This document shows positions 2,976 through 64,000 of a stretch of 64,000 nt of DNA, in pieces. Source of the stretch: Kozakia baliensis (GTDB lineage Bacteria > Pseudomonadota > Alphaproteobacteria > Acetobacterales > Acetobacteraceae); contig NZ_CP014675.1 of NCBI RefSeq assembly GCF_001787335.1, positions 124,001-188,000 on the forward strand. The letters run 5' to 3'. The first letter of the stretch is position 1. Each line of letters starts with the position of its first letter. Below the pieces are notes generated by a model. The model searched no databases and was not told the origin of the DNA. It saw nothing but the letters and a program-made list of their open reading frames with translations. The position numbers and the translations under genes were made by a program.

Positions 2976-3839
2976 ATGTCAAACGATCAAAAAATGCCAT
3001 TCCTGTTCGGCATGAATGAATTTACGACACAGCCGTGGTCATTCGAAGAGGATGTGGCGCGTTATAAAGCGCTCGGGGTCGACGCCATCGAGATATGCGA
3101 AGCGAAACTCGATCGTTCTCGCGCGGGCGAGCAAATTGAATTTGCCAGCGAGACGGGTTTGATAATCAGTGCGATACAACCAGCGGTGCGCACTTTTTTT
3201 GGAAGTAAAATGGTTCCTTCTCCTTTCGAGCCGAATGCCCGGGCAGATGCCTTTGAGTACAGTCTAAAAAGCTTGGCACCTTATGCACCGGGTTCAGTAT
3301 TTATTTGCAACACCGGCGCGCCGCCAAATGGGAATATCCAGTTCGTTCTTGACGAAACCATCCGTTATTTGCGTAGACTTTGTCCTATTGCCCTGGATCT
3401 CGGCGTTTCGTTGGCTTTAGAACCATTGAACCCTGTTTCAATGAATCTCGAAAGCGCGATCTGCACAATCGCTCAAACTATGGACATCATCGACGGCGTT
3501 GGGCATCCAGCAATAGGTCTCTGTTTAGATTACTGGAACATCTGGCAAGAAGATAATGTCGAAGCGCAAATAAGCCGCGCGGGTTCTAAAATCAGCGTCT
3601 TGCAAGCTAGCGACTGGCGCGTTCCTCTTTCCGGTGCGGATCGATTGATTCCAGGTGACGGATCCATCCCGCTCGGGACCTTGCTTAGAGCTACCCATGA
3701 CGCTGGTTACCGCGGTGCTTGCACCGTGGAAATCTTTTCGGATGGCGTCCCAGACAGCCTTTACCGAGACGATCTGCAACAAGTCATACAGAAAAGCCGT
3801 TTAGGGTTGGAAGATGCCTGGGAAAATATTCCCAGATAA
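2976..3839 (+). CDS. Xylose-isomerase-like TIM-barrel protein (sugar phosphate isomerase/epimerase family)
   Basis: A 287-residue protein of the AP endonuclease 2/xylose isomerase-like TIM-barrel superfamily. Candidate metal-ligand positions are the Glu in LALEPLNP, Asp in LCLDYWNIW, and Glu in CTVEIFSDG near the end, as in hydroxypyruvate isomerase and inosose dehydratase relatives. It begins 12 bases after the hydrolase stop and ends at a strong terminator, so the two genes probably form a bicistronic catabolic operon. The substrate cannot be assigned from sequence alone. Confidence 0.82.
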   Translation: MSNDQKMPFLFGMNEFTTQPWSFEEDVARYKALGVDAIEICEAKLDRSRAGEQIEFASETGLIISAIQPAVRTFFGSKMVPSPFEPNARADAFEYSLKSLAPYAPGSVFICNTGAPPNGNIQFVLDETIRYLRRLCPIALDLGVSLALEPLNPVSMNLESAICTIAQTMDIIDGVGHPAIGLCLDYWNIWQEDNVEAQISRAGSKISVLQASDWRVPLSGADRLIPGDGSIPLGTLLRATHDAGYRGACTVEIFSDGVPDSLYRDDLQQVIQKSRLGLEDAWENIPR

Positions 3840-25941: not shown

Positions 25942-26637
25942 ATGTCGCGACTTCATCCTCTCGCTGAACGTCATGCTGTCGAGAAACTTGGCTGGCTGCG
26001 CGCCGCCGTCCTCGGCGCCAATGATGGAACACTCTCCACTGGAAGCCTGATTGTTGGTGTCGCCAGTTCTCACGCGACACGCGGCAGTATCCTCATCGCA
26101 GGATTATCCGCGCTGGTGGCGGGTGCCCTCTCCATGGCGGCCGGGGAGTATGTTTCGGTCAGTTCCCAATGGGATTCAGAACAGGCCGATATCGCCCGTG
26201 AGAAACAGGAACTGGCTACGGACTGGGACGGAGAAGTGACTGAGCTGGCGGGGATCTATCAGCAGCGTGGGCTGGATGCAGATCTCTCCCACACGGTGGC
26301 CGTCGCCCTCATGCAGCATGATGCCCTTGGCGCTCACGCCCGGGATGAACTGGGACTTTCAGAGGCCACAGCGGCCAGGCCCATCCAGGCGGCATTTGCA
26401 TCGGCTTCTGCCTTTTCTTCAGGGGCGGTGCTGCCCGTTCTGGCGGCTGTTCTGGCTCCCGTTTCGTGGGTGTCCTGGAGCGTCTCGCTGACGTCCGTCG
26501 TGGTTCTCGTCATTCTGGGCATTGTTGGTGCAGTCGCCGGTGGCGCAACTCCCTGGCGGCCGGCGCTGCGCGTAACATTCTGGGGTATTGTGGCGATGAT
26601 CGTCACCGGCGGGATCGGACATCTGTTCGGCGTGTGA
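25942..26637 (+). CDS. VIT/CCC1-family transporter, copy 1
   Basis: A 231-residue membrane protein of the vacuolar iron transporter family. The N-terminal LRAAVLGANDGTLSTGSLIV and ALSMAAGEYVSVSSQ carry the helix-1 and helix-2 signature. A charged cytoplasmic segment (EQADIAREKQELATDWDGEV) follows, then three C-terminal helices. Such proteins move Fe(II) or Mn(II) out of the cytosol. It is divergent from the cytochrome b561 5' piece and closely matches the VIT gene at 57557-58252, which also lies beside a cytochrome b561 gene. Confidence 0.9.
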   Translation: MSRLHPLAERHAVEKLGWLRAAVLGANDGTLSTGSLIVGVASSHATRGSILIAGLSALVAGALSMAAGEYVSVSSQWDSEQADIAREKQELATDWDGEVTELAGIYQQRGLDADLSHTVAVALMQHDALGAHARDELGLSEATAARPIQAAFASASAFSSGAVLPVLAAVLAPVSWVSWSVSLTSVVVLVILGIVGAVAGGATPWRPALRVTFWGIVAMIVTGGIGHLFGV

Positions 26638-27264
26638 CGCAGAAAGAGGCGTCGAGCGAAATCTGTTGGAGGGATCGCAGAACCGTTAATTGATGTTCCT
26701 TGGTTTTGATTTTGGGCTTTTAGCGATTGGATCGAGGGTTCTTTGGGTCGCTTTTGATCTGCGCTTTGAACAGACCGGGGAGTATCGCCACTTGCGATGG
26801 CTACGTGCTCGCGCTGATCCGTTCCAGGAAGAGGAAGCGGCGGATATTGTAGACGATATTGGCCAGCCCGATCTTCATGGTCGCCCGGGTGATACCCACT
26901 GTCCGGATGAACAATCCCGTCTGCGATTTCTGATCGGCAAAGACATGTTCGACGCGGGATCGGGTCACCGACTTTCCAGCATTCGACTTCTGGATATGCC
27001 GGGGCATCGGTTTGAGATGCGGCTTTTTCCTGTGGACCTTCAAGACGAAACCCTTTTTGTCCATGAAATCCTCATTGGCTTTCGAGCGGTAGGCTGTATC
27101 TGCCCAGACGCTTGAGACCGTATTGGTTTTCTCAAGCAAGCCCTCTCTCACTCGTGCGCCATCACTGACGGCGGCATCCGTCGCCTTCCATTTCCGGATG
27201 AACCGAAATTTCCGGTCGATAGAGACGTGATCTTGTACCGAGAGCGCAAGCAATTTTTCCGGTT

Positions 27265-28602
27265 TCAGGAGTTCTTTTCGATCCGATTGGAACGACGTCC
27301 TGCTCTGATGTTTTCTCCGACAGTATAGCGCTCCAGAATGATGGCTTTTGCTTCACAGAGGGTGATGCTGTTTCCCTCCCTGTCGCGCACTTCATAAGGC
27401 TTTCCTCGTTTGAGAACGCTGAAGATCCGGTTCACAATACGATTGGCAACGGCACATAAAGCCTGTTTGTGATGATGACCTTTCGCCGTCATCAGCCTCC
27501 AATAAAGTTCTGCCAGTTCAGGATCTGTTTTTCGTGCCGTATCAGCAGCAAGATAAAGTGCATGTTTGATGCGGTTATTGCCACCCTGGGTCAGGGTCTG
27601 GCCCGCTCGCTCCACACCACCACTATCAGCCCTCCGGGGAAACAGGCCACAAAAACCCCGTAAATGTTTTTCGGAATGAAACCGCTCAATGTTCTGCAAG
27701 ATACCAATCAGGGTCGGCGCAAGATGTCGGCCGACACCCGGAATACTGAGCAGAAGAGCCTGTGGGTCGAGGTGTTTGTAGAGATCGGCAATATGCTGCT
27801 CAAGATCTCCAACTATTTGAATTTTCTTCAGAACATTCTCAATTTCCGTCGCAATTTCGAATTGCAGTTCCGAAAAATCAATGTGTGCCCCATGAAGGTT
27901 CTGGGCGTATTGCGCCGCTTCACGTAACCCTGTGATCAGCGTTTCCACAAAGGGCCCACTGCGCGGATGGTTCCCTCCTGCATGGGCTGCAACATATTTG
28001 GCGAGTGTCGTACGACGCGCCTTCAAAACATCCGAGGGGTGAAACCATTTCTGCAACAGGGCCAAAGAGAGCCGTGTTCCTAAGTCGGGCAAGACTGCTT
28101 CAAGCCTGGGAGATGCCCAACGAATGAGATCAAGCAGGCGCCGCCTGGCATCTGCGACCTCGTTCTGAAAGCGGCTTCTCTGTTTGGTTAGACGTTGAAG
28201 AGCGTGGCTTCGCGGATCCGGAATGTGGACTGGATCAAGACGTGGTCCACCAAATGACGGTATGGCCGCCAGGATCTGGGCATCAGCCATATCCGTTTTG
28301 GCGTGTTCGGAAAGGTAACGGCGTAGAGCCTTGACCCGTTTTCCCTTGACGCGAGCCACGGTGACGCCAGCATCTGCAAGATGGTGGGCAACAGGAAACC
28401 AGCTCATGCCGGTTGGCTCCATGATGGCCTGAATGTGGTCATCCGCCCTCAGCCCCATCACGGCTGTCTGAACAAAAGCGGCGAGTGAAGGCTGATCGTG
28501 CCTGAAACGAATTGCACGGCCATTAGGGCGGCCATCGTCATAGATCTGAGCGAGGTGATCTCCGCGAATGGCCAGATCAATACCAATGGTACGGAATGTC
28601 AT
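27265..28602 (-). CDS. IS110-family recombinase/transposase
   Basis: A 445-residue protein with an N-terminal DEDD RuvC-like domain: IGIDLAIRGD, AIMEPTGMSWF and AKTDMADAQIL carry the acidic residues. The C-terminal Tnp domain has LLSIPGVGRHLAPTLIGIL, and GGVERAGQTLTQGGNNRIKH supplies the serine nucleophile region. Family length is usually 320-450, so this is a long member. It appears intact and lies inside the decayed IS5-type transposase. Confidence 0.92.
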   Translation of the reverse strand: MTFRTIGIDLAIRGDHLAQIYDDGRPNGRAIRFRHDQPSLAAFVQTAVMGLRADDHIQAIMEPTGMSWFPVAHHLADAGVTVARVKGKRVKALRRYLSEHAKTDMADAQILAAIPSFGGPRLDPVHIPDPRSHALQRLTKQRSRFQNEVADARRRLLDLIRWASPRLEAVLPDLGTRLSLALLQKWFHPSDVLKARRTTLAKYVAAHAGGNHPRSGPFVETLITGLREAAQYAQNLHGAHIDFSELQFEIATEIENVLKKIQIVGDLEQHIADLYKHLDPQALLLSIPGVGRHLAPTLIGILQNIERFHSEKHLRGFCGLFPRRADSGGVERAGQTLTQGGNNRIKHALYLAADTARKTDPELAELYWRLMTAKGHHHKQALCAVANRIVNRIFSVLKRGKPYEVRDREGNSITLCEAKAIILERYTVGENIRAGRRSNRIEKNS

Positions 28603-28930
28603 GGTCGGTCCTTTCTGGTGAGGGAACCAACGCTACGGTCACAGTCAGGTGTGTCATTCGTGGCCGATCAACTTCACTCAAAGCAGACGCCACAATCATG
28701 TTACTCTTGCCCCGTCAGCGCGGCCGGACCGGGTTCATGCTTCACAAAAGACGAGACGATCGGCGGATCTCTCAGGGACTTCAGCCCCGAACCGGCCTGG
28801 TTCGTTCTGAGAGTATAGACCCGGTTCCCGGCATGCCGGGAACCGGGTCTGATCCACAAGCACGTCTCCGAAGCCTGTGCTTCTCCGACTTTCTCCATGG
28901 CATCAAACCCGGCCCCGCTATCGATACCTG
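28603..28930 (-). ncRNA. IS110 non-coding end, candidate bridge RNA region
   Basis: This is a 328-bp non-coding stretch between the recombinase start and the element end. It holds a 34-base perfect palindrome at 28817-28850 (half-site AGACCCGGTTCCCGGCA). IS110 elements of this arrangement transcribe a structured guide (bridge) RNA from here. I have not worked out its loops, so the RNA itself is inferred from position and structure only. Confidence 0.4.
28817..28850. repeat. 34-bp perfect palindrome in the IS110 end
   Basis: AGACCCGGTTCCCGGCA is followed immediately by its exact reverse complement with no spacer. It would fold into a very stable hairpin as RNA or a cruciform as DNA. It lies about 215 bp upstream of the recombinase start. 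Confidence 0.9.
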
Positions 28931-29830
28931 GGATTTGTAACTAAAGAACGGAATGGTGAGGTCCGTTGCGGAGATCGTTCCGTCATCCTGCCGCTTTGCT
29001 TTGGTGAATTTCAACGACCAGCGCGCACGACGGTCCTTGTGCGACAGCTTTGCCGGCTTGTCCTGCCAGTCCTGTGGAAGCCTACCTTCACGCAGATCGG
29101 CCTTCTCGGCGTTGGTATTGCGCTGCTTTGGAACCACGACCGATGTCGCGTCCAGGATCTGGCCCGTCATCGGCAGATAGCCCGCGTTCCGCAAGGTTGT
29201 ATCAAAGCAATTGAACAGACTCTCAATCGCACCCGCCTGTGTCAGACGCTCGCGAAACAGCCAGACCGTTTTGGCATCAGGCACACGGTCCGACAGGTCC
29301 AATCCCAGAAAGCGCATAAAAGACAGACGGTCATTGATCAGATACTCCGTCCGTTCATCAGATAAATTGTTCAGCGTCTGGATCACCAGAATTCTGAACA
29401 TCAGCACCGGATCAAAAGGCGGTCGTCCGCCCTTGCTTCCGTTTGTAGGCCAGAGCCTTCTCCAGATCAGGACAGAACGACTCACAGTCTACAGTCCGGG
29501 AAAACCTTCGAGCTGATCGCCAAGCCCGCTCAGCCGGGCAAGCCGCTCTCCGACATCAAAGAAGCCACGCTGCTTCATGATCCATACCACAATCAACGCA
29601 CAGGAAATGGAATCACACAGAAAACATCAAAACCAGAGGGTTTTTCGAACCCTCCACCTCGTTCTGGATGCTCTACGTTATAGGAGATGAATAAGGTTTG
29701 TTACGGGCGAAAGTCCCAAGTTCCGTCTGTCGCGCTTCGCCTAGTAATGTCCGCTTTCGGGCAACCACTATAAACGCTCAAATGACCGAGATGAGGCGGA
29801 AGCCGACATGGAGACACGCCCGTCATCCCA

Positions 29831-32017
29831 TCATGCGACGCTATCCGCCAGCCATTCCTTCAGTTTTGACCATCGTCGTTTTCCGCCTTGGTTGCGCACC
29901 GCAATCGTCAATGCCTTCTTCTGTCCAACGAGCACGACGAGCTTCCTGCCCCGTGTGACGCCCGTGTAGAGCAGATTCCGCGCCAGCATGGCGTAATGCT
30001 GCGTCACCAGCGGAATAACCACGGCCGGATATTCCGATCCCTGGCTCTTGTGGATGGTCGTGGCGTAGGCCAGCACCAGTTCGTCCAGCTCGCCGAGACC
30101 ATACACGACCTCCCGTCCATCGAATGAGACCGTCAGTTCACCTTCTTCGATATCGATCCTGTCGATAACGCCAAGATCGCCGTTGAAGACGTCCCGGTCA
30201 TAATCGTTAGCGATCTGCATCACCTTGTCGCCGGGACCATAGGTCCAGCCGAACCGCTCGACCTTCAACTCACCCGGCGGGTTCAGCGCCTGCTGCAATT
30301 CGATATTCAGCGATCGCGCCCCGAGCCCGCCCCGGTTCATCGGGCAGAGCACCTGCACGTCACGAACCGGGTCCAGCCCGAACCGCGCGGGAATGCGATC
30401 CTTCACCACGGCCAGCAGTTTGCGCAACCCGATCTCCGGTTCGGCCGCCTCGACAAAGTAGAAATCCGATCCTTCTTCCGCACTCAGTTCAGGCATCCTG
30501 CCCTCGTTGATCCGGTGCGCGTTGGTGATGATCCGGCTCTGCGCCGCCTGGCGGAATACCTCGGTCAGCCGCACCACAGGCACGGCATCGGAACCGATGA
30601 TATCGGCCAGCACCTGCCCCGGCCCCACTGACGGTAATTGGTCCACGTCACCCACAATCAGCAGGGCGGCGCTGTCGGGCAAGGCCCGCAGCAGGGAGCG
30701 CATCAGCAGCACGTCCACCATACTGGCTTCGTCCACGACCAGCAGATCGCAGGTCAGCGGGTTGATATCGTCCCGTTTGAAACTGCCAGTCGCCGGATCC
30801 GTCTCCAGCAGTCTATGGATGGTCTTGCCTTCCAGCCCCGTGCTTTCCGACAGGCGCTTCGCCGCGCGACCGGTCGGCGCACAAAGCTGTACATCCGTGC
30901 CCTTGGCGGTCACAATTTTTAGAATGGCATTGACCAGCGTGGTCTTGCCCACGCCAGGACCACCCGTGATCACCAGCGCCTTGCTGTGCAGGGCAAGGCG
31001 CACCGCCTCCTGCTGGCTGGGGGCCAGGGCAAGCCCGGTCTTGCCTTCCACCCAGGTCATGGCCTTTTCCGAGTCAATCTCCGGCCAGGGCGGACGACCG
31101 ACGGCACAGGCGCGCAACCGCTCGGCGATGCTCTGCTCCGCACGATACAGGCCGGAAAGAAAGATGCAGCCCGTCTCGCCAACGCTGTCGGCAACTACGT
31201 CGCCCGTCTCCAACTCCAGCGCAAGGGCCGTCTCGATCAGAGGTCCCGCGACCTCCAGCAGTTCGGCGGCCCCGGTCAACAACTCCCCGACCGGCAGGCC
31301 GCAATGCCCTTCATCCATCGCCTCGCCGAGCGCGTAGGAGATCCCTGCCCTCACCCGGATCGTTGCGTCGGGCGCGATGCCCATCTTCCGGGCGATCTGG
31401 TCGGCGGTCTTGAACCCGATGCCCCGGATATCCTTCGCCAGCCGGTAGGGGTTCTCGCTGATCAGTTGGACCGCGTTCTGGCCGTAGGTCTTGAAGATCC
31501 TTACCGCTCGCGAGGTGCCGACGCCGTTGCTGTGCAGGAACAGCATGATCTCGCGGATCACCTTCTGGTCCGCCCAGCCACCGACAATCCGCTCGGCCCG
31601 CTTGGGGCCGATGCCCGTCACCTCCCGCAGACGGTGCGGTTCCTGTTCGATCAGGTCGAACACCGCCTCGCCGAACGTCTTCACCAGTTTCTTGGCATAG
31701 ACCGGGCCAATGCCCCGGATCATGCCCGAACCGAGATAACGCTCGATGCCCTCGACCGTGGTCGGCGGGCTGGCCTTGAGGAACTCGGCCTTGAACTGGA
31801 GCCCGTGAGTATGGTCGTTGAACCAGCGCCCCGACATCTGCACGAACTCGCCCGCCGAAATCATGGCGGCGTGCCCCACGACAGTCACCAGATCGCGCTG
31901 CCCCCGCACCTTCACCCGCAGAACGCAGAAACCGTTCTCGGCATTGTGGAATGTCACCCGCTCCACGAGGCCAGCCAGTGCTTCCGTGGGCGAAGAGTCG
32001 GTGACGCGTCCGCTCAT
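29831..32017 (-). CDS. recD2: RecD2-type ATP-dependent DNA helicase
   Basis: A 728-residue SF1B 5'-3' helicase. An N-terminal OB-like/HhH region (tandem GIGPVYAKKLV, TGIGPKRAERIV, GIGFKTADQIARKMG) precedes Walker A GGPGVGKTT at about residue 351 and Walker B VVDEASMVD. The C-terminal motif is YATTIHKSQGSEYPAVVIP. I chose ATG 32017 (MSGRVTDSSPTEALAGLVER) because conserved sequence begins there. Relatives on plasmids are often annotated as RecD-like or TraA-type helicases. It lies downstream of the partition operon on the same strand, separated by 262 bp carrying TAGCTAGC-type repeats. Confidence 0.9.
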   Translation of the reverse strand: MSGRVTDSSPTEALAGLVERVTFHNAENGFCVLRVKVRGQRDLVTVVGHAAMISAGEFVQMSGRWFNDHTHGLQFKAEFLKASPPTTVEGIERYLGSGMIRGIGPVYAKKLVKTFGEAVFDLIEQEPHRLREVTGIGPKRAERIVGGWADQKVIREIMLFLHSNGVGTSRAVRIFKTYGQNAVQLISENPYRLAKDIRGIGFKTADQIARKMGIAPDATIRVRAGISYALGEAMDEGHCGLPVGELLTGAAELLEVAGPLIETALALELETGDVVADSVGETGCIFLSGLYRAEQSIAERLRACAVGRPPWPEIDSEKAMTWVEGKTGLALAPSQQEAVRLALHSKALVITGGPGVGKTTLVNAILKIVTAKGTDVQLCAPTGRAAKRLSESTGLEGKTIHRLLETDPATGSFKRDDINPLTCDLLVVDEASMVDVLLMRSLLRALPDSAALLIVGDVDQLPSVGPGQVLADIIGSDAVPVVRLTEVFRQAAQSRIITNAHRINEGRMPELSAEEGSDFYFVEAAEPEIGLRKLLAVVKDRIPARFGLDPVRDVQVLCPMNRGGLGARSLNIELQQALNPPGELKVERFGWTYGPGDKVMQIANDYDRDVFNGDLGVIDRIDIEEGELTVSFDGREVVYGLGELDELVLAYATTIHKSQGSEYPAVVIPLVTQHYAMLARNLLYTGVTRGRKLVVLVGQKKALTIAVRNQGGKRRWSKLKEWLADSVA

Positions 32018-32195
32018 CCTGCCTGCCGGAAGAACGGCACTTCTGTATCGTTCATGAACCGCCCTCTCCTTTCGTGACGTCGCAACGCACCAGTATTTGT
32101 ACAACGCGCCTCCTTACGACTACCTGTAATGACACTTGCCGAAAGCGAGTCTAGTTGACAGTTCTGTGCGCGCTAGCGTCGGGCTACCTACGTAA

Positions 32196-32211
32196 TAGCA
32201 GCTAGCTAGCT
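32196..32211. repeat. TAGCTAGC-type motif upstream of recD2
   Basis: TAGCAGCTAGCTAGCT lies between the small partition gene and recD2. It is the same kind of motif that recurs in the tandem repeats upstream of parA, so the same DNA-binding protein may act at both places. Confidence 0.45.
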
Positions 32212-32279
32212 CTTAAAACGCGACGTCGTATCCTAAAGGGGGCCAAAAGGCTCCAGGAACCCGATACTTATCGAGCCTA

Positions 32280-32606
32280 CTATCCCTGATCCGCTAGCTG
32301 CGCCATAGCAATCTCGATGGTCTCTGCCAGTGTAATGTCATGTTGGTCGGCGTAATCGTAGATCGCCTGCAGCGTCTCGCGCTTCAATCGCGTAGCAAAC
32401 TGTTCCGTCCGCCCGGTCCGGCGTCGAGGACGCCGCACTATCCCACCAGACGCGATGGGCATGGGCTGACTTGTAGTAGCCGTCGGGGTTTCGCGCAGGC
32501 CGGCCGATTTCGCGACTTGTTTGACTAATGCCGCATCAATACGCAGCGGCGAGGGTTGCCCGTCATCGCCAAAGTCAAGCGCGGCGCGGCGTGGTGCATT
32601 TGTCAT
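32280..32606 (-). CDS. Small ribbon-helix-helix partition protein (ParG-like)
   Basis: A 108-residue protein with a disordered basic N-terminal half (RRPRRRTGRTEQ). A C-terminal segment, EQFATRLKRETLQAIYDYAD then QHDITLAETIEIAMAQL, has the strand-helix-helix look of MetJ/Arc-type DNA-binding proteins. The start overlaps the parA stop by 4 bases. In type Ib partition systems such a small centromere-binding protein follows parA and binds repeats upstream of the operon. The assignment rests on position and fold, not strong sequence identity. Confidence 0.65.
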   Translation of the reverse strand: MTNAPRRAALDFGDDGQPSPLRIDAALVKQVAKSAGLRETPTATTSQPMPIASGGIVRRPRRRTGRTEQFATRLKRETLQAIYDYADQHDITLAETIEIAMAQLADQG

Positions 32607-33277
32607 CCTATTTCTCTTCCTTGCAATCCGTTGATTACCGCTTGCGCAAATGCCCGGCTGTTTTCACGTGCCGCGCTCAAGCCGCCCACCTCATTGTCAC
32701 CAAGCTCGTCGAGAACGCCGCCGATCGAAAACAGGGCGCGATACGCGGCGCGGTCGAGCAGAGCGGTCGGGAGCGTGGGAATTTTACTGACTTGGAATTG
32801 CCGCTCAATGTCTCGAAAGGTTCGTTCACGGATCGCCGAAGCAACCCGACTGAAGAATACTCGAAACACAATGGAACGGCCTACAACCCTTTCCATGTTC
32901 CGGATCAAGCGGATCGCTTTCGCGGCCTCGTTGGCGTCCAACATTGAACCCTGAGAGGGAATAAGAACAAAATCTGATCGTGCGATAGCGAAGCCGATGC
33001 GATCGGTAGCGGTCCCCTCAAGATCGACAATCACAAAATCAGATAGCTGGTTCGCGTTATCAATCGTGTCGATGATTGTGTCGACCGAATCGTCCACAAC
33101 GATACGCAATGTCGAGGGTATGGCCCGTATAGCGGACCACGCCTCAAGCGGACGATTCGGATCGGCATCGATAAGGGTAACGGACTTACCCGCGGCCGCC
33201 AGCTCGCCAGCAAGCACGACGGCCGCCGTGGTCTTCCCAACCCCTCCCTTGCTCGAGACGAAGGATATCACACTCAT
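32603..33277 (-). CDS. parA: ParA-family partition ATPase (short, type Ib-like)
   Basis: A 224-residue ATPase with deviant Walker A VSSKGGVGKTTAAVVLAGEL at the N-terminus, DADPNRPLEAW, and Walker B FVIVDLEGTAT. It lacks the N-terminal helix-turn-helix of long ParA proteins, which is the type Ib pattern. It forms a two-gene operon with the RHH gene. The first codons are repeated twice upstream (near 34030 and 34697) as stubs within the tandem repeats. It should drive segregation of the replicon, with its centromere in 33278-34850. Confidence 0.9.
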   Translation of the reverse strand: MSVISFVSSKGGVGKTTAAVVLAGELAAAGKSVTLIDADPNRPLEAWSAIRAIPSTLRIVVDDSVDTIIDTIDNANQLSDFVIVDLEGTATDRIGFAIARSDFVLIPSQGSMLDANEAAKAIRLIRNMERVVGRSIVFRVFFSRVASAIRERTFRDIERQFQVSKIPTLPTALLDRAAYRALFSIGGVLDELGDNEVGGLSAARENSRAFAQAVINGLQGREIG

Positions 33278-34850
33278 AAAAGTCAGCTCCGGTAAACGAT
33301 GACAGCAAATCTTTTGCTGCTTTTATTTTGCTAACAAGTGGCTAGATTCTAGCTAGCAGCTATCTGACGAGTTATGCCTCCTCTATCGGCCATTCTGGGC
33401 AGCGACGCAACTGCTAGCTGACTGCATTTTGCTATCTAGCGGATACCTAGCTGCTAGACATTGACGAACCAAACACTAGAGAGCATCGTCTCCTTTCGTA
33501 CCGTGATCATTACCACGCCACGTAGCTCAGGTATTTAAACCGTATAATCACCTAAGCGTCTGCAGCAATGCAACGAGACGCAAACTTCAGATCGGCGGTA
33601 TTCACGCTTTCGCAAAAGATGTTCGTGCGATAGGGGTCAGCAGCGAGACTCAGCACCATGACGTCCGCTCAATGTCCGCTTCTCACTTAAGCCTTTGCTA
33701 CAAGAGACTGGAGTGTACCTATTGGGCTTAGCTAGCAGCGATCTAGCAGCTAGCTAAACGTTGGATGTCCATTAGGTCGGCCACTATCGCATCGATTCAC
33801 ACTCTACCCGGCCGAGGAAAGCCATTCGGGCTAAATACCTAAAAAAGCTCCGCGACGAAGAGCATGTTCGAGAAGGGTGGACTTTAGGGGCGCTTCGGCA
33901 GACTTCCTGAATAATCTGCGGTAATTTTCCCCGCGGGCGTTGCTAATTTTCTTGACCCATTCAATGGACTTTAGGGGCGTTCCGCGTGATCGTCCGCGTC
34001 CCCGTTCGATACGAAGGATATCACACTCATAAAAGTCAGCTCCGGTAAACGATGACAGCAAATCTTTCGCTGTTTTTATTTTGCCAACAAGTAGCTAGAT
34101 TCTAGCTGGCAGCTATCTAGCGGGAGAAGCCTCCTCTATCAGCCATTCTGGGCAGCGACGCGACTGCTAGCTGACTTACATATTGCTGTCTAGCAGATAC
34201 CTAGCTGCTAGACATTGACGAACCAAACACTAGAGAGCATCGCCTCCTTTCGTACCGTGATCATTACCACGCCACGTAGCTCAGGTATTTAAACCGTATA
34301 ATCACCTAAGCGTCTGCAGCAATGCAACGAGACGCAAACTTCAGATCGGCGGTATTCACGCTTTCGCAAAAGATGTTCGTGCGATAGGGGTCAGCAGCGA
34401 GACTCAGCACCATGACGTCCGCTCAATGTCCGCTTCTCACTTAAGCCTTTGCTACAAGAGACTGGAGTGTACCTATTGGGCTTAGCTAGCAGCGATCTAG
34501 CAGCTAGCTAAACGTTGGATGTCCATTAGGTCGGCCACTATCGCATCGATTCACACTCTACCCGGCCGAGGAAAGCCATTCGGGCTAAATACCTAAAAAA
34601 GCTCCGCGACGAAGAGCATGTTCGAGAATGGTGGACTTTAGGGGCGTTCCGCGTGATCGTCCGCGTCCCCGTTCGATACGAAGGATATCACACTCATAAA
34701 AGTCAGCTCCGGTAAACGATGACAGCAAATCTTTCGCTGTTTTTATTTTGCCAACAAGTAGCTAAATTCTAGCTGGCAGCTATCTGACGAGTTACGCCTC
34801 CTCTATCGGCCATTCTGGGCAGCGACGCGACTGCTAGCTGACTGCATTTA
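33258..34850. repeat. Tandem direct repeats (about 750, 667 and 173 bp) upstream of parA; candidate centromere
   Basis: Three head-to-tail units begin at 33258, 34011 and 34678 with ACGAAGGATATCACACTCAT, the complement of the parA start. Units 1 and 2 are almost identical except for 86 bp present only in unit 1. That segment is bounded by the direct repeat GGACTTTAGGGGCG (first at about 33885), so slippage explains the difference. Unit 3 is cut off at an IS3 end. The units are dense in TAGCTAGC/CTAGCTGCTAG motifs, including an imperfect palindrome at 33728-33757 and again at 34482-34511. No gene is supported inside; only parA stubs of about 19 or more codons are present. Confidence 0.9.
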
Positions 34851-35115
34851 GAGGTGGACCCCATTTTTCGGACAGGTGTCTAAGCTATAATCCGACCTGA
34901 ACGAGGACGGGTTTTATGGGTAAGGTTACGCGCAAGAGGTATGCGGCGGAGTTCAAATCACGGGTTGCGCTGGAGGCGATCCGTGGGGAGCTGACGCTGG
35001 CGGAACTGGCTTCGAAACATGGTGTGCATCAGACGATGATTGCCCAGTGGAAGCGCCAGGCAGTTGAGGGCATGGCGGCAACCTTTTCGGGGAAGGCGGT
35101 GTCTGAGCCCCTGGT
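34851..35115 (+). mobile_element. Left end of an IS3-family element, truncated by IS21
   Basis: GGTGGACCCCATTTTTCGGA at the start resembles an IS3-family terminus. It is followed by an orfA start. The element cuts the third partition repeat on its left and is itself cut by the IS21 element on its right. Confidence 0.7.
34916..35115 (+). pseudogene. IS3-family OrfA (transposase helix-turn-helix subunit), truncated
   Basis: ATG 34916 begins MGKVTRKRYAAEFKSRVALE and continues AIRGELTLAELASKHGVHQTMIAQWKRQ, the helix-turn-helix/leucine-zipper start of IS3 OrfA. It is interrupted at residue 66 by IS21; normal OrfA is about 90-100 residues and OrfB is wholly absent. Confidence 0.85.
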
Positions 35116-35227
35116 TGTTGATTTTCACTGAGAACTGACCCGGGTAGGGCGGAAATTTTCATCGAGATTTGACCCATGCCTTCACACTCCCCGGCATCAT
35201 CTGCTGGGGGTTTTTGGAGTGATTGAC

Positions 35228-36751
35228 ATGGAGCTTCTGAGTGTGATCCGCCGGTGGCATCGCCGGGATCATCTTCCGATCCGCGAGATCGAACGCCGGA
35301 CAGGACTGTCACGCAATACGATCCGGAAATATCTCCGGGCAGAGAGCATTGAACCGCGGTTCCAGGTCCCCGAACGTCCCAGCCGACTGGACCCGTTTGC
35401 TGACAAATTGAGAGGATGGCTGGTTCTGGAAGCCGCCCGATCCCGCAAGAACCGGCGCACGGCGCGACGGTTGTATGAAGACCTTGTGACGCTGGGTTAT
35501 GATGGATCCTATGGACGGGTGGCTGCTTTCATCCGGCAGTGGAAACACGAACAGCACCAGGCACGCCAGACAACGGGCCGGGGTGTTTTCGTGCCCCTGT
35601 GCTTCCAGCCCGGGGAAGCCTTCCAGTTTGACTGGGGCGAGGACTGGACGGTGATTGCCGGGCATCGCGTCAAGCTGCAGGTTGCCCACACCAAACTGTC
35701 CTTCAGCCGGGCCTTCATACTCAGGGCCTATCCCCTACAGACCCACGAGATGCTTTTTGATGCGCTTACCGAGGCCTTCCGCGTGCTCGGTGGCGTGCCG
35801 CGGCGGGGTATTTTTGATAACATGAAGACGGCCGTGGACCGGATTGGCTCTGGCAAGGCACGTCAGGTCAACCTGCGCTTCATGGCCCTGGCCAGCCATT
35901 ATCTGTTCGAGACAACCTTCTGCAATCCGGCAGCGGGATGGGAGAAAGGGCAGATCGAGAAGACCGTGCAGGATGCCCGACGCCATATCTGGCAGGATCT
36001 GCCTGCCTTTCCTGATCTGGGGGCACTGAATGCCTGGCTGGAAGCCCGCTGCCTGGACTGCTGGGAACGGCTGCAGCATATCGAACTGGCCCGGAGCATC
36101 GCCGAGGTCCATGCCAGCGAGCGTCCTCACCTCATGGTGCCGGGGCGTCCCTTTGACGGGTTTGTCGAACAGACCAAACGCGTCTCACCAACCTGCCTGA
36201 TCCAGTTCGAAGGCAATCGCTACAGCGTGCCGGCCTCCTTTGCCAATCGTCCGGTCAGCCTGCGGGTTTATCCTGACAAGCTGCGCATTATCGCCGAAGG
36301 GCGGGTTCTGTGCGTGCATGACCGGATCATCACGCGTTCGCATGGTGTGCCAGGCCGCACGGTGTATGACTGGCGGCATTATCTGGCGGTCATCCAGCGC
36401 AAACCGGGCGCCCTGCGCAATGGCGCGCCGTTTACCGAATTGCCAGCTGCCTTCCGGACCCTGCAGGATCAACTGCTCAGGCGGCCTGGAGGCGACCGGG
36501 AAATGGCTGAAATCCTGGCCCTGGTGCTGCAGCATGATGAGCAGGCCGTCCTCTGCGCGGTTGAACTGGCTCTTGAAGATGGCGTGGCGACCAAGACCCA
36601 TGTTCTCAATACGCTTCATCGCCTGATCGATGCCAAGAGAACCGTGGTTCCCCGGCTCGATGCCCCACAGGCCCTGGTGCTCGAACATGAACCGTGCGCC
36701 GATACAGGGCGGTATGACATCCTGCGAAGGGACAGCCGCCATGCGTCATGA
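35228..36751 (+). CDS. istA: IS21 transposase IstA
   Basis: A 507-residue transposase. The N-terminal helix-turn-helix is [20 protein letters not shown]. The DDE core appears as [24 protein letters not shown] and [11 protein letters not shown]-terminal beta-barrel domain has [20 protein letters not shown]. The ATG at 35228 follows a GTG nine bases upstream that is also possible. The stop overlaps the istB start by 11 bases, usual for the family. Confidence 0.93.
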
Positions 36752-37520
36752 TCCTGCCGCTGCTTCACTTGTCGTCATGCTCCGTGGATTGCGGATGTAT
36801 GGCATGTCCCAGGCCACGGCTGACCTCATCGAGCAGGGCGCACCTGCCTTCGAGGCGGCCATCCCCATCCTCTCACAACTCCTGAAGGCGGAACTGGCCG
36901 AACGCGAAGTGCGCTCCATCGCCTACCAGACAAAGACCGCCCGGTTCCCTGCCTACAAGGACCTGTCCGGGTTCTCCTTTGCCAATACGCAGGTCAACGA
37001 GCCCATGGTCCGCCAGCTCCATAGCGGGGACTTCATCGAGCGTGCTGAAAATGTCGTGCTGATCGGTGGTCCGGGAACCGGAAAAACCCACCTGGCGACC
37101 GCGCTGGCCATCCAGGCGATCACCCATCACCGCAAGAAGGCGCGCTTCTGGTCAACGGTCGACCTGGTCAATGCGCTCGAACAGGAAAAGACCGCCAACC
37201 GGGCCGGGCAGATTGCCGACAGGCTGCTCCGCCTGGATCTCGTGATCCTTGATGAACTCGGTTATCTCCCCTTCAGTGCATCTGGGGGCGCCCTGCTGTT
37301 CCATCTGCTCAGCCGCCTCTACGAGCGCACCAGTGTCATCATCACAACCAATCTGAGCTTCAGTGAATGGGGAGACGTCTTTGGTGACCCGAAGATGACA
37401 ACGGCGCTCCTCGATCGGCTGACCCATCACTGTCATATCCTCGAGACAGGAAATGACAGCTACAGGTTCCGCGCCAGCACCGCCGCGTCAAAAAACAGAA
37501 AGGACAGATCCTCTTCTTGA
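36741..37520 (+). CDS. istB: IS21 helper ATPase IstB
   Basis: A 259-residue DnaC-like AAA+ ATPase that directs IstA to its target. Walker A is [14 protein letters not shown], Walker [14 protein letters not shown], and sensor region [18 protein letters not shown]. Family length is about 250. It is intact. Confidence 0.93.
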
Positions 37521-61560: not shown

Positions 61561-62340
61561 TCAAGAAGAGGATCTGTCCTTTCTGTTTTTTGACGCGGCG
61601 GTGCTGGCGCGGAACCTGTAGCTGTCATTTCCTGTCTCGAGGATATGACAGTGATGGGTCAGCCGATCGAGGAGCGCCGTTGTCATCTTCGGGTCACCAA
61701 AGACGTCTCCCCATTCACTGAAGCTCAGATTGGTTGTGATGATGACACTGGTGCGCTCGTAGAGGCGGCTGAGCAGATGGAACAGCAGGGCGCCCCCAGA
61801 TGCACTGAAGGGGAGATAACCGAGTTCATCAAGGATCACGAGATCCAGGCGGAGCAGCCTGTCGGCAATCTGCCCGGCCCGGTTGGCGGTCTTTTCCTGT
61901 TCGAGCGCATTGACCAGGTCGACCGTTGACCAGAAGCGCGCCTTCTTGCGGTGATGGGTGATCGCCTGGATGGCCAGCGCGGTCGCCAGGTGGGTTTTTC
62001 CGGTTCCCGGACCACCGATCAGCACGACATTTTCAGCACGCTCGATGAAGTCCCCGCTATGGAGCTGGCGGACCATGGGCTCGTTGACCTGCGTATTGGC
62101 AAAGGAGAACCCGGACAGGTCCTTGTAGGCAGGGAACCGGGCGGTCTTTGTCTGGTAGGCGATGGAGCGCACTTCGCGTTCGGCCAGTTCCGCCTTCAGG
62201 AGTTGTGAGAGGATGGGGATGGCCGCCTCGAAGGCAGGTGCGCCCTGCTCGATGAGGTCAGCCGTGGCCTGGGACATGCCATACATCCGCAATCCACGGA
62301 GCATGACGACAAGTGAAGCAGCGGCAGGATCATGACGCAT
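61561..62340 (-). CDS. istB: IS21 helper ATPase IstB (copy 2)
   Basis: A 259-residue protein identical to the product at 36741-37520, with Walker [15 protein letters not shown] and Walker [14 protein letters not shown]. Intact. Confidence 0.93.
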
Positions 62341-63853
62341 GGCGGCTGTCCCTTCGCAGGATGTCATACCGCCCTGTATCGGCGCACGGTTCATGTTCGA
62401 GCACCAGGGCCTGTGGGGCATCGAGCCGGGGAACCACGGTTCTCTTGGCATCGATCAGGCGATGAAGCGTATTGAGAACATGGGTCTTGGTCGCCACGCC
62501 ATCTTCAAGAGCCAGTTCAACCGCGCAGAGGACGGCCTGCTCATCATGCTGCAGCACCAGGGCCAGGATTTCAGCCATTTCCCGGTCGCCTCCAGGCCGC
62601 CTGAGCAGTTGATCCTGCAGGGTCCGGAAGGCAGCTGGCAATTCGGTAAACGGCGCGCCATTGCGCAGGGCGCCCGGTTTGCGCTGGATGACCGCCAGAT
62701 AATGCCGCCAGTCATACACCGTGCGGCCTGGCACACCATGCGAACGCGTGATGATCCGGTCATGCACGCACAGAACCCGCCCTTCGGCGATAATGCGCAG
62801 CTTGTCAGGATAAACCCGCAGGCTGACCGGACGATTGGCAAAGGAGGCCGGCACGCTGTAGCGATTGCCTTCGAACTGGATCAGGCAGGTTGGTGAGACG
62901 CGTTTGGTCTGTTCGACAAACCCGTCAAAGGGACGCCCCGGCACCATGAGGTGAGGACGCTCGCTGGCATGGACCTCGGCGATGCTCCGGGCCAGTTCGA
63001 TATGCTGCAGCCGTTCCCAGCAGTCCAGGCAGCGGGCTTCCAGCCAGGCATTCAGTGCCCCCAGATCAGGAAAGGCAGGCAGATCCTGCCAGATATGGCG
63101 TCGGGCATCCTGCACGGTCTTCTCGATCTGCCCTTTCTCCCATCCCGCTGCCGGATTGCAGAAGGTTGTCTCGAACAGATAATGGCTGGCCAGGGCCATG
63201 AAGCGCAGGTTGACCTGACGTGCCTTGCCAGAGCCAATCCGGTCCACGGCCGTCTTCATGTTATCAAAAATACCCCGCCGCGGCACGCCACCGAGCACGC
63301 GGAAGGCCTCGGTAAGCGCATCAAAAAGCATCTCGTGGGTCTGTAGGGGATAGGCCCTGAGTATGAAGGCCCGGCTGAAGGACAGTTTGGTGTGGGCAAC
63401 CTGCAGCTTGACGCGATGCCCGGCAATCACCGTCCAGTCCTCGCCCCAGTCAAACTGGAAGGCTTCCCCGGGCTGGAAGCACAGGGGCACGAAAACACCC
63501 CGGCCCGTTGTCTGGCGTGCCTGGTGCTGTTCGTGTTTCCACTGCCGGATGAAAGCAGCCACCCGTCCATAGGATCCATCATAACCCAGCGTCACAAGGT
63601 CTTCATACAACCGTCGCGCCGTGCGCCGGTTCTTGCGGGATCGGGCGGCTTCCAGAACCAGCCATCCTCTCAATTTGTCAGCAAACGGGTCCAGTCGGCT
63701 GGGACGTTCGGGGACCTGGAACCGCGGTTCAATGCTCTCTGCCCGGAGATATTTCCGGATCGTATTGCGTGACAGTCCTGTCCGGCGTTCGATCTCGCGG
63801 ATCGGAAGATGATCCCGGCGATGCCACCGGCGGATCACACTCAGAAGCTCCAT
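62330..63853 (-). CDS. istA: IS21 transposase IstA (copy 2)
   Basis: A 507-residue protein identical to the product at 35228-36751, with the same overlap with istB. The identity of both genes in the two copies points to recent duplication. Confidence 0.93.
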
Positions 63854-64000
63854 GTCAATCACTCCAAAAACCCCCAGCAGATGATGCCGGGGAGTGTGAA
63901 GGCATGGGTCAAATCTCGATGAAAATTTCCGCCCTACCCGGGTCAGTTCTCAGTGAAAATCAACAACCGATAGCCCTCCAAGCGCGGACGCAGACCCTCG

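Follow-up and report, generated by a model that had tools for sequence, protein, structure and literature searches.

Tandem duplication has probably multiplied the candidate centromere of a type Ib-like partition cassette on a Kozakia baliensis plasmid

Why does a plasmid repeat the region upstream of a partition gene? The question is raised by a 64,000-nucleotide stretch of Kozakia baliensis DNA (the window), part of a 253,508-bp contig that is an Acetobacteraceae plasmid with a ParA-ParB-RPA replicon of its own. Within it, the sequence preceding a short parA recurs in tandem and carries clusters of TAGC/GCTA motifs. We consider it probable that these arrays are the centromere and operator of a type Ib-like partition cassette that came in by horizontal transfer, and that tandem duplication accounts for most of the rise to six clusters. 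Coordinates below are those of the window unless marked as contig positions.

The repeats are real, and each unit has the same starting point. Units begin at 33258, 34011 and 34678, at spacings of 753 and 667 bp, and each opens with the start of parA (its first 20 bases are repeated) followed by the gene's upstream region, as the earlier note had described. That note called the region triplicated, but only two units are full: unit 1 (33258–34010, 753 bp) and unit 2 (34011–34677, 667 bp). Unit 3 is a fragment of 172 bp (34678–34849) that ends where a transposase remnant begins, at 34850. The net shortfall of 86 bp that had been noticed in unit 2 breaks down into 87 bp missing between 14-bp direct repeats, GGACTTTAGGGGCG, and one extra base elsewhere in the unit. 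By sequence match, unit 1 carries this repeat at 33879–33892 and again 87 bp on at 33966–33979, unit 2 retains a sole copy at 34633–34646, and a fourth is found at another place on the contig. A search of the same genome turned up no other occurrence of the unit sequence, so the remainder of unit 3 is gone. Searching 397 genomes of the family returned the plasmid's own genome and one 27-base match (E 9e-4), nothing more.

Because the copies differ, the units are not an assembly artefact. Apart from the inserted base and the 87-bp deletion, units 1 and 2 show 19 substitutions in the 193 + 420 positions compared, and these are unevenly spread: 17 of 193 positions differ in 33278–33470, the parA-proximal part that holds the array, versus 2 of 420 in 33471–33890 (Fisher p 1.6e-7). 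Unit 3 shares nine columns, one of them a gap, with unit 1 and seven with unit 2. We read such patchy differences as the probable product of recombination, either between the copies or with a related array.

The TAGC/GCTA motifs fall into six clusters. At the native position upstream of parA, the array of unit 1 spans 33330–33457, with 12 TAGC/GCTA in 33325–33465, the top-scoring segment of the contig. A scan with seven-mers (below) places the array of unit 2 at 34092–34211 and the leftover array of unit 3 at 34759–34849. Alignment and the same scan locate a second cluster in each full unit, where two palindromes had been reported: the 30-bp elements at 33728–33757 and 34482–34511 exist and are mutually identical, but as palindromes they are imperfect, being 80% complementary. 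The sixth cluster, 32172–32300, covers the end of the parB-like gene and the sequence behind it, has 10 TAGC/GCTA in 32165–32305 and ranks in the contig's best three segments. A motif had been seen here before, at 32196, in front of recD2; it exists, but we place the cluster inside the par cassette instead, because the homology with a Kozakia plasmid on the recD2 side stops near 32130.

Counting and scanning both single out this locus. The sequence TAGCTAGC occurs four times in the 253,508-bp contig and its reverse complement three times, every copy at this locus. Outside 31900–34900 the densest 150-bp stretch holds 4 TAGC/GCTA matches; inside, 94 overlapping stretches exceed 4, with a maximum of 12. 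We then scanned all 253,508 bp with 40 seven-mers enriched before parA, learned from 22 non-redundant homologous loci that included neither the window nor the Arsenophonus locus (L031). The six best separate 150-bp segments start at 33326, 34101, 32196, 34481, 33726 and 34766, with 12, 10, 10, 9, 9 and 5 hits. The next segments elsewhere on the contig have 5, 4, 4 and 4 hits (mean 0.11), so that the sixth, at 34766, ties with one of them. With the 22 TAGC-type seven-mers alone the tied outside segment disappears, and the best elsewhere scores 4.

The internal order of the arrays is regular. They are built from dyads such as TAGCNGCTA, frequently spaced by 11 bp, and distances of 2, 5 and 11 bp recur often, in the homologues when all pairs are counted and in the window between neighbours. 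Dinucleotide shuffling of each region, a test that preserves the motif's own composition, gave p < 0.05 in just 5 of 28 homologues and p 0.001 for the window (on 200 bp). Expectation maximization on the arrays gave a diffuse matrix, which we set aside.

The gene pair behind the arrays has the layout of a type Ib system. On the minus strand, parA (32603–33277) encodes a 224-residue small Walker ATPase whose nearest solved structure is ParF of TP228 (4dzz; best phmmer match, E 1.4e-11, residues 1–179). Its Walker A motif lies at residues 10–17, leaving no space for an N-terminal DNA-binding domain. Directly downstream in the same operon, and sharing 4 bp with the end of parA, a parB-like gene (32280–32606, minus strand) encodes a 108-residue, probable centromere-binding protein, and an array of direct and inverted repeats is present upstream of the operon. 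Both proteins are full-length open frames. ParA retains 128 of the 161 positions invariant in seven rhizobial homologues, Walker A included, and its partner 46 of 62; most of the ParA changes look conservative to us. Homologues support well the earlier proposal of a short ParA followed by a small-protein gene in type Ib order.

Signs of the ribbon-helix-helix (RHH) fold proposed earlier for the partner are weak and come mainly from its distant relatives. Pfam, NCBIfam and PDB families hold no convincing match to the 108-residue protein, and 19 close members of its family match unrelated families weakly (best TMEM171, E 0.0066). Among seven distant relatives, three weakly match 56B_RHH (0.0065), Omega_Repress (0.02) and HicB, each a family of RHH type, and four match nothing; one distant relative has an Arc-like repressor match at 0.0096. 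A wider profile searched against the PDB gave a single match, ORF56 (E 0.43), which we take to be an RHH protein. Alignment to CopG with hhalign gave E 0.2 at a probability of 0.3%, and the profile search of solved structures returned no match to ParG. Eleven aligned members share TGR and, after it, a spacing that looks RHH-like to us. The monomer model has two C-terminal helices, at 65–88 and 93–107, and no strand; overall confidence is low (mean pLDDT 70, pTM 0.36), although from residue 71 onward the helices exceed 85, and Foldseek with this model found no significant match (best E 4.2). A monomer is silent on the RHH fold, because in RHH proteins the strands pair between two molecules, as stated in PMC5016525. 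The sub-threshold matches of the distant relatives lend the RHH proposal some weak support, which the fold model did not add to.

The closest relatives of the cassette sit on rhizobial plasmids. A tblastn search with ParA reached 342 plasmid records, and the 17 best listed, all from Rhizobiaceae and relatives, are 66–69% identical. The partner was found in 20 plasmid records and is 52–57% identical to the partner of small rhizobial plasmids such as NT26_p2 and pcAMD1. Its homologues carry the title 'stability/partitioning determinant' in 14 of the 20 and are hypothetical in six; a full-length ParA lies beside it in 18, a shortened ParA in one and a transposase in place of ParA in one. The last two look like broken copies of the cassette: Aminobacter pSR6 (L098) keeps the partner with a shortened parA, and in Mesorhizobium loti p_2 (L099) an IS5 transposase has replaced parA. 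Scanning species genomes added 21 loci, 19 of which we would place, by their names, under Hyphomicrobiales; the other two are metagenome bins labelled Azonexus and Paracoccus.

Relatives within the host's own family are more distant. The partner matches 16 of 249 genomes there, fifteen only distantly, and in 10 of the 17 family loci outside this genome ParA is 46–52% identical over most of its length. The cassette is therefore more similar to rhizobial cassettes than to the ones sampled within its own family, a pattern that suggests horizontal acquisition from another lineage. Its surroundings find their matches above all in acetic acid bacteria: among 95 plasmid records with near DNA matches to 26000–35200, mostly to insertion sequences and recD2, 43 are Acetobacter, 18 Komagataeibacter and 16 Gluconobacter.

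The array travels with the gene pair. In 30 of 36 homologous loci (23 of 28 plus 7 of 8), no other stretch of the fetched locus is as dense in TAGC/GCTA as the 150 bp before parA; the exceptions are L031 (Arsenophonus, counted among the 28), L032, L072, L074, L078 and L096. These counts omit L073, whose fetched piece has no parA, the two broken copies L098 and L099, and the plasmid records LR723681 and OZ012608. On the Arsenophonus nasoniae plasmid a different tandem repeat, of the TTGATATCTAACTATC type, lies between an RPA gene and parA (about 3355–3455). Conservation of the array beside the pair supports well the earlier suggestion that the upstream repeats would be the centromere. Unusually fast evolution of the array is not supported by these loci: its divergence exceeded that of third codon positions in 9 of 11 disjoint close pairs of homologues (Wilcoxon p 0.17) and, in 6 of 10, that of the adjoining 150 bp further upstream (p 0.32).

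A single cluster is common on these plasmids, and not a rule. At a threshold of four or more seven-mers, learned in part from these very plasmids, each of the five homologous plasmids read whole has one cluster. In the A. tumefaciens plasmid pAtCFBP6623b (L096), additional TAGC clusters lie at 2597–2640 and 2877–2925, over the end of the parB-like gene and behind it, so one cluster per plasmid cannot be general. They are possibly an independent multiplication of the motif.

We infer from this arrangement how the cassette would work. The 108-residue protein would bind the TAGC/GCTA arrays, which would serve it as centromere and also as the operator of its operon. By analogy with pSM19035 and TP228, as PMC9499535 and PMC5016525 describe them, small-protein dimers would cover the arrays, repressing parA and stimulating the ATPase, and the plasmid would thereby follow nucleoid-bound ParA. 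The parA promoter region would have been duplicated in tandem from 20 bp inside parA, the third unit being partial; together with the cluster behind the parB-like gene this would give six clusters in 2.7 kb, versus one in the five homologous plasmids read whole. Extra arrays, once bound, would form more complexes per plasmid and a larger partition complex. A gain from the additional copies, such as the rise in segregational stability or incompatibility suggested earlier, is conjecture, and copies 2 and 3 may be idle.

Known systems offer partial parallels. Like TP228 parFGH (type Ib; PMC5016525), the cassette has a ParF-like small ATPase gene, then a small-protein gene, and repeats upstream of the operon; unlike it, the repeats are TAGC/GCTA dyads, the small protein gave no ParG match in the profile search of solved structures, and the repeat region is duplicated in tandem. 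The pSM19035 delta-omega-parS system shares the design of several separate short-repeat arrays overlapping promoters (PMC9499535), so multi-site type Ib centromeres are already known: six parS sites are reported for that plasmid, and full ATPase activation there takes four or more contiguous repeats (PMC9499535 and PMC5016525). Its repeats are 7 bp long (WATCACW) and its genes are separately transcribed, whereas here the dyads are often 11 bp apart, the genes overlap and the extra sites are for the most part one promoter region copied in tandem. Additional centromere sites also occur on an alphaproteobacterial megaplasmid, as 3parS of the Paracoccus repABC plasmid pAMI4, but those are repABC parS palindromes 11.5 kb downstream of repC (PMC9040568).

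Small rhizobial plasmids are a further parallel, having TAGC arrays directly before parA. They differ in carrying a single array (the five read whole), in most cases a Rep-like gene upstream and, often, toxin-antitoxin genes downstream; in our plasmid no such rep was found, there are six clusters, and the cassette is the second system of a large plasmid. Among the open-licence papers listed by full-text searches, no title or abstract opening mentioned this TAGC motif or a tandemly duplicated type Ib centromere. The arrays offer a candidate centromere sequence, conserved over many genera, for a family whose second gene is annotated as a 'stability/partitioning determinant' or as hypothetical, and a natural plasmid with a changed centromere copy number, in which the effect of number is directly measurable.

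The plasmid's own, complete replicon lies elsewhere. At contig positions 214590–217447 lie a 352-residue ParA (ATPase from residue 78), a 300-residue ParB (ParB_N, HTH_ParB) and the RPA initiator, whose gene occupies 216614–217447. Five iteron repeats with the core CGGAATATCGCGCACA, spaced 22 or 24 bp, follow at contig 218597–218732. From the units, the RPA gene is 58 kb away and the iterons 60 kb. With a replicon and distinct iterons of its own, the plasmid therefore carries the cassette as a second partition system, and the TAGC repeats do not serve as iterons of that replicon. Carrying two partition systems is nothing rare: of the plasmids in which such systems are recognised, about 19% have more than one (PMC13245405).

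The plasmid's own replicon speaks for the serious alternative of neutral duplication, which we judge unlikely: the arrays would still be the par centromere, but the cassette would be a relic of a fused plasmid and its tandem copies a by-product of recombination in a region rich in insertion sequences. The contig already has ParA, HTH-ParB and RPA genes, and a search of contig and genome, the latter run without a positive control, did not find the Rep that accompanies rhizobial cassettes (the PF01051 profile gave one weak match, on another contig of the genome, and PF03428 no match). The transposase remnant cuts unit 3, and between units 1 and 2 the arrays differ but the spacer is nearly unchanged, whereas constraint on the extra arrays would produce the reverse. 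Against a relic stand the intact reading frames of ParA and its partner and their retention of most rhizobial-invariant positions.

We hold it distinctly improbable that centromere number is a tunable trait of the cassette, with several handles, in the form of tandem arrays that have diverged in patches, titrating the binding protein of rhizobial-type plasmids and so outcompeting or expelling incomers, the plasmid's own inheritance being secured by the other partition system.

Very unlikely, too, is the reading of the arrays as mere operators that autoregulate parA, with the centromere elsewhere. They do lie in the parA promoter region in the homologues read, except Arsenophonus, but clusters also occur away from the native promoter (32172–32300 and the palindromes), and according to PMC5016525 and PMC9499535 published type Ib centromeres lie upstream of the operon and the pSM19035 parS arrays themselves overlap promoters.

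We give scarcely any credence to the arrays being replication iterons bound by a Rep protein: 25 of 28 homologous loci do encode a Rep-like helix-turn-helix protein upstream of parA, and three records title such a protein 'replication protein A', but no such Rep was found here in the searches just described; the earlier note's own caveat, iterons of a Rep encoded elsewhere, fails for the contig's RPA-type Rep, whose iterons differ in sequence and location; and the array stays at parA where other genes separate it from rep, with 7 matches in an A. vitis plasmid that has toxin-antitoxin-type genes in between and, more weakly, 4 in a similarly arranged A. tumefaciens plasmid. The Azonexus-binned contig (L058; Azonexus we take to be Betaproteobacteria) has a TAGC array with no Rep-like gene in the 1.36 kb upstream, its distant Rep-like match lying downstream of the pair.

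Minor features of the locus complete the picture. A sigma-70 scan gave one site, within parA (2.0 expected), and an Rfam search of 31500–35500 gave no match. Terminator-like hairpins (five entries at three distinct places, versus 2.2 expected) include two on the minus strand, at 33863–33847 and 34617–34601, with short stems, that would part the copied promoters from parA. The transposase remnant beyond unit 3 (HTH_Tnp_1, 34850–35112, plus strand) is itself cut at about 35113 by an element, presumably IS21-like, whose other copies begin to match at about that position. Two copies of this element, 35113–37520 and 61561–63862, lie in opposite orientation and bracket about 24 kb of the window.
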